Below, piece after piece: positions 29,210-63,608 of a DNA stretch of 64,000 nucleotides (positions are counted from its first letter, which is position 1; the number at the start of each line of letters is the position of its first letter). The position numbers and the translations under genes are program-made. The notes below the pieces were generated by a model that saw only the letters and a program-made list of their open reading frames with translations, searched no databases and had not been told where the DNA came from. Source of the DNA: Trematomus loennbergii (taxonomy: Eukaryota; Chordata; Actinopteri; Perciformes; Nototheniidae); contig JAAOOA010000002.1 of assembly GCA_012861695.1 (NCBI GenBank), positions 32,942,873 to 33,006,872 of the forward strand. Direction: 5' to 3'.

Positions 29210-63608
<34,399 letters not shown>

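Follow-up and report, generated by a model that had tools for sequence, protein, structure and literature searches.

The 30 nt at positions 44762–44791 (plus strand) of the window are, with a probability of roughly 0.85 and judging from sequence comparisons, the VASE exon of percomorph ncam1b and belong to a pair of presumed cassette microexons within its Ig4 intron. The second microexon, 24 nt long, is located at positions 39248–39271 of the same strand and had been overlooked in the original prediction. The window, that is, the whole stretch of DNA that was analyzed, comprises 64 kb (C2:32942873-33006872) of a genome of 1,208,474,268 bases.

The gene in the window

On the plus strand, 17 in-frame coding exons and 1 further candidate were placed, running from Ig1 to the cytoplasmic tail. 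Ig4 is encoded by two constitutive exons with homologues in the fish protein search, Ig4a (37901–38043, plus strand), which ends with EGEQ, and Ig4b (48882–49032, plus strand), which starts with SLDG; they are split by an intron of 10,838 nt (about 10.8 kb). The fish protein search was performed with a 107-residue Ig4 query that included VASE and resulted in 2,424 proteins at E ≤ 0.001, the best 120 of which were used. The top match, P0060 from Pogonophryne albipinna, was 99% identical over the 107-residue query, and Ig4 identities among the matches listed were mostly 87–97% for ncam1b and 75–80% for ncam1a. The gene in the window is taken as teleost ncam1b, probably of a notothenioid-like percomorph, because its nearest relatives among the matches listed carry this label, an assignment based on Ig4 identities.

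Two exons, Ig5a (50175–50361) and FN1b (53513–53640), each contain one frame break relative to the related genes. This could indicate a decaying gene, and both microexons would then be non-functional leftovers with splice signals retained by chance. Such an explanation is extremely improbable: the remaining exons are open and have proper splice sites, the protein of a close relative, P0060, is continuous across both frame breaks, and ASWTRPE, the core of the VASE peptide, shows no variation across an alignment of 42 proteins that ranged from fish to mammals and were all chosen for containing VASE. Because the other exons are open and P0060 reads through both breaks, we infer that assembly error, rather than decay, is probably the source of the breaks. 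No structured RNA was found by Rfam at gathering scores in the 64-kb window. Outside the Ig4 region, we take a 337-residue open frame at 4883–5893 to resemble a Tc1-type transposase, and open pieces at 24625–25392 to resemble a LINE reverse transcriptase.

Alternative exons between FN1 and FN2 (MSD and AAG) represent another splice hot spot of the same gene, which differs from VASE in domain and junction. The FN1b-FN2a junction (53640–59371) corresponds to the place where mammals have the MSD exons as well as the AAG exon. A 33-nt exon candidate of phase 1-1, with a translation of 12 residues, is located between FN1b and FN2a at 56737–56769, and an insert resembling it (HGIFHFFSEDTG and the like) was found at this junction in 12 of the 120 fish matches listed. 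At the same junction, P0085, P0089, P0153, P0159 and P0168 have VQG, as opposed to VR elsewhere, as would result from an exon of 3 nt comparable to AAG in mammals.

The VASE exon in fish and amniotes

The DNA of the window reads GCATCATGGACTCGGCCCGAGCAGCACAAG at the VASE exon, which encodes the ASWTRPE core with the tail EQHK, so that both the coordinates and the translation given in the original prediction were correct. The sequence leading into the exon on the acceptor side is ...tgtcttctgcag. The acceptor, with its pyrimidine tract (44742–44761, plus strand; tgtgtctctgtcttctgcag) and a TGC at −5, and the donor gtattc (44792–44797, plus strand) were scored together with those of the other exons, 18 in total, using a consensus matrix. 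At 12.4 bits, the acceptor ranked third of the 18 exons scored; the donor, at 3.5 bits, was the second lowest. Thus, the strong acceptor and the GT donor that had been postulated are present, the latter being weak. The exon has phase 0-0, as had been proposed, and since the junctions of Ig4a and Ig4b that flank it are both phase 0, its inclusion preserves the reading frame.

A chance match of the VASE peptide was ruled out. Under uniform codons, ASWTRPE would be expected about 1.3 × 10−4 times in the six frames of 64 kb, and a degenerate VASE pattern bounded by AG and GT had a single match genome-wide at ≤2 mismatches, whereas reversed-pattern controls had 0. At ≤2 mismatches, a second VASE copy was not found in the genome; a more diverged ncam1a VASE would escape a scan of this kind.

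The decapeptide was found inserted at the EGEQ/SLDG junction in 120 of 120 fish proteins among the matches listed, and in 119 of these it starts with ASWTRP. The tails were EQHK in 63, EKHK in 51, EQYK in 2, EHHK in 2 and ETHK in 1 of the 120 matches listed; the remaining one, P0120, has ASWTRLEQHK, the sole deviation within the first seven residues. The 51 EKHK proteins among the matches listed are labelled ncam1a, NCAM1, NCAM1-like or hypothetical, and none of them ncam1b. For the amniotes, a mammalian VASE context plus a fish segment was used as query and 1,115 proteins were retrieved; the best 120 were all from mammals or birds, and ASWTRPEKQE was present in 120 of these 120. As both queries contained VASE, the two listings show what is inserted and where, and not how common VASE is. 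One fish model, P0001, has no insert at the Ig4 junction; the VASE-bearing fish proteins are likewise all predicted models. In a bat NCAM1 model (P0281), an additional Q separates VASE from TLDG, which would fit the use of an alternative acceptor located 3 nt further upstream.

The identity of 44762–44791 as the VASE exon of NCAM1, which had been claimed earlier, is therefore supported by its length, phase, Ig4 position and sequence as well as by the fish and amniote proteins that carry the insert at this junction. The exon resembles the amniote NCAM1 VASE exon, also called pi, in its ten residues, in the Ig4 junction (EEK/TLDG in amniotes, EGEQ/SLDG here) and in ASWTRPE. It differs in the tail, EKQE in amniotes and EQHK here, and in the presence of a second microexon upstream in the same intron. 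The mammalian exon likewise measures 30 nt; the comparison with amniotes was made at the protein level. Otophysan ncam1a VASE, for example that of Danio rerio (P0110, P0123), shares the junction, the ASWTRPE core and the final HK with the exon described here, but has EKHK instead of EQHK and lacks AHLNRIYQ, the peptide of the 24-nt exon, among the matches listed, which were chosen by VASE words.

Two further claims held in part. Strong constraint on the ten-codon exon was borne out for the first seven residues, within the VASE-selected set of 42 proteins, but not for the last three, which vary by lineage. The difference between EQHK and the mammalian EKQE is real, but other fishes have EQHK as well. 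From the fish tail counts and the amniote EKQE it follows that the final HK is typical of teleosts, and the Q of ncam1b. Because the two types of teleost paralogue and the amniotes all have VASE, the exon would predate the split of ray-finned fishes and tetrapods. A VASE exon in a fish is expected, not surprising, and it is already contained in public predictions; among the features described here, the 24-nt neighbor appears to be the novel part of the locus.

A 24-nt microexon upstream of VASE

The 24-nt exon (39248–39271, plus strand) is open in the DNA of the window, has phase 0-0 and encodes AHLNRIYQ. It is located in the same Ig4 intron, 1,204 nt past Ig4a and 5,490 nt ahead of VASE, and reads, with its boundaries, agtacattttcttcctacag/GCACATCTAAACAGGATCTATCAG/gtagga. 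Its acceptor (agtacattttcttcctacag, 39228–39247, plus strand) reached 13.9 bits, the top value of the 18 exons scored, and its donor (gtagga, 39272–39277, plus strand) 9.0 bits. In the fish's own genome, the pattern has a single exact match, the one in this intron; two further genomic matches, with 2 mismatches and on other contigs, have no acceptor AG.

When the window was scanned for AG, 9–51 open nt and GT, cuts of 12.4 bits for the acceptor and 3.5 bits for the donor left only VASE and the 24-nt exon on the plus strand and 0 candidates on the minus strand, a result that is partly circular because the thresholds were taken from these two exons. When the acceptor cut was lowered to 10 bits, there were 4 candidates on the plus strand and 3 on the minus strand of the 64-kb window; at 8 bits, there were 5 (3 beyond the microexon pair) and 6, respectively. 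Therefore, splice-site strength by itself is no proof. Within the Ig4 intron, VASE and the 24-nt exon were still the only candidates at both the 10- and the 8-bit cut.

At least 10 predicted proteins, which come from 9 percomorph species, have AHLNRIYQ immediately ahead of VASE, with 8 of 8 residues identical (P0004, P0085, P0109, P0115, P0124, P0131, P0157, P0159, P0173 and P0174; genera Siniperca, Pseudochaenichthys, Notothenia, Anabas, Cottoperca, Gasterosteus with two proteins, Semicossyphus, Cheilinus and Ilyodon). Nine of these proteins belong to the 120 fish matches listed, and the tenth, P0004, came from a separate first search. Conservation was quantified for 8 carriers, leaving out P0157, a second stickleback model, and P0004, which is truncated. 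Both microexons were identical in 28 of 28 pairs, compared with mean identities of 0.898 and 0.926 for the flanking constitutive exons, all of these values being derived from database predictions that may have been modelled on one another by homology. In the flanking exons, about 76% of the columns are invariant; at this rate, the chance of 8 invariant columns is 0.11, and that of 18 invariant columns is 0.007. By this measure, conservation of the 24-nt exon reaches at least the level of constitutive sequence, but, because of the chance value of 0.11, it does not significantly, and hence not provably, exceed that of the flanks.

All ten carriers being predictions, VASE could be genuine and used while AHLNRIYQ is an annotation artefact, or a rare noise exon, that gene predictors have passed from one species to another; the matches listed also contain no carrier devoid of VASE. 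We consider this unlikely. The 24 nt occur exactly and in frame in the window's own DNA, within the same intron and with a good donor and the strongest acceptor of the 18 exons, the ten predictions, which represent nine species and several percomorph groups, agree at 8 of 8 residues, and an unused 24-nt stretch of an intron should drift. That the 24-nt exon arose from VASE as a degenerate tandem copy is very improbable, although intron and phase are shared and both exons start with GCA: when the window was searched with either exon (allowing ≤9 mismatches over the 30 nt of VASE and ≤6 over the 24 nt of its neighbor), each matched only itself, and the two peptides have no evident motif in common. 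A genuine 24-nt cassette exon next to VASE thus remains the preferred reading.

The proteins show Ig4 inserts of 0, 10 and 18 residues, and of 16 in one species; an 8-residue insert alone was not found among the proteins listed. In the ncam1b model of Sphaeramia (P0121), VKYRLN stands between EGEQ and VASE. This was rejected as a further microexon because it looks like read-through of the Ig4a donor, possibly via an alternative donor. In the window, a stop is present three codons beyond the Ig4a donor, so that an extension of this type is not open.

Whether the two microexons are spliced separately or form one unit, with AHLNRIYQ only ever accompanying VASE and three states (0, 10 and 18 residues) instead of four, is evenly balanced. 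The order AHLNRIYQ-VASE in 10 of 10 carriers speaks for a single unit, as does the 19-residue segment in the amniote-search query, which was contained in 0 of 120 proteins among the matches listed. Conversely, joint splicing is not forced with 5,490 nt between the exons, the fish search was biased to VASE, the amniote-search matches listed were all from mammals and birds, and clustering at 90% hides isoforms. Both searches were thus ill-suited to reveal AHLNRIYQ in proteins lacking VASE, none of which were found among the matches listed.

Possible regulation and role of the Ig4 inserts

P0174, a protein of 869 residues with both inserts, was modelled from a 42-row alignment (mean pLDDT 70). 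In this model, insert residues 348–365 are placed between the Ig4 strands C' (340–342) and D (372–374), and residues 346–377 have a pLDDT under 50. The insert region is therefore modelled as an exposed loop that is either flexible or else poorly modelled. The model of P0001, which has no insert, had a mean pLDDT of 44.7, too poor for a control, and its strand order puts the junction at the same place. Among solved structures, the best chain was NCAM2 2xy1, and the VASE peptide was not found in the best 5 of 60 alignments.

In most cells, the whole Ig4 intron would be removed, resulting in an Ig4 domain without insert, whereas some cells would retain either VASE alone or both microexons, so that the C'-D loop would be longer by 10 or 18 residues. 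Inclusion may require neuronal factors of the Rbfox and possibly the SRRM3/4 kind, as suggested by the weak VASE donor, by a TGCATG that starts 11 nt into the downstream intron (44802–44807, plus strand) and by the TGC of the acceptor. TGCATG, which we take to be the Rbfox motif, also occurs about 98 nt upstream (44664–44669, plus strand) and about 214 nt downstream of VASE (45005–45010, plus strand). Altogether, the Ig4 intron has 5 TGCATG motifs versus about 2.4 expected from base composition, and 3 of the 5 are within about 250 nt of VASE, a clustering noticed post hoc. The 24-nt exon has a TGC at −23 and a TGCATG about 182 nt downstream.

Both exons resemble neuronal microexons in that they are at most 30 nt long, have lengths divisible by three and reside in a neural gene; the 24-nt exon differs from such microexons in general in that it was met here only in percomorph proteins. 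According to one study, 402 microexon pairs are common to zebrafish and mouse, and Ncam1 is named there among the mouse genes with alternative microexons, the passage not stating which Ncam1 microexon is meant (PMC7821500). Neither ASWTRPE nor AHLNRIYQ was found in literature text, which is a weak negative result because most subscription papers were outside the scope, and within the same scope a description of a fish VASE exon was not found either.

VASE has long been known as a developmental switch of NCAM. The mammalian exon is described as being included more in the adult brain and as restraining neurite outgrowth, and by analogy the form with VASE would favor stable contact over neurite growth in fish. 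A review reports that VASE transcripts go up during development and that rising VASE together with the loss of polysialic acid presumably shifts NCAM from plasticity to stability (PMC2644493), and another paper lists the Ncam1 VASE exon among the splicing differences separating hippocampal subregions (PMC7804943). Tentatively, VASE and a fish-specific 24-nt exon might together form a switch that acts on the C'-D loop of Ig4 in percomorph ncam1b; with independent control of the two microexons, four lengths (0, 8, 10 and 18 residues) would result, and these would differ in adhesion or signalling.

The finding illustrates how an unfamiliar neighboring exon may be overlooked when raw sequence is read with a known exon in mind. 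If used, the 24-nt exon beside VASE would further lengthen the loop in percomorphs, and the naturally graded insert lengths would then allow the action of the Ig4 loop to be probed.
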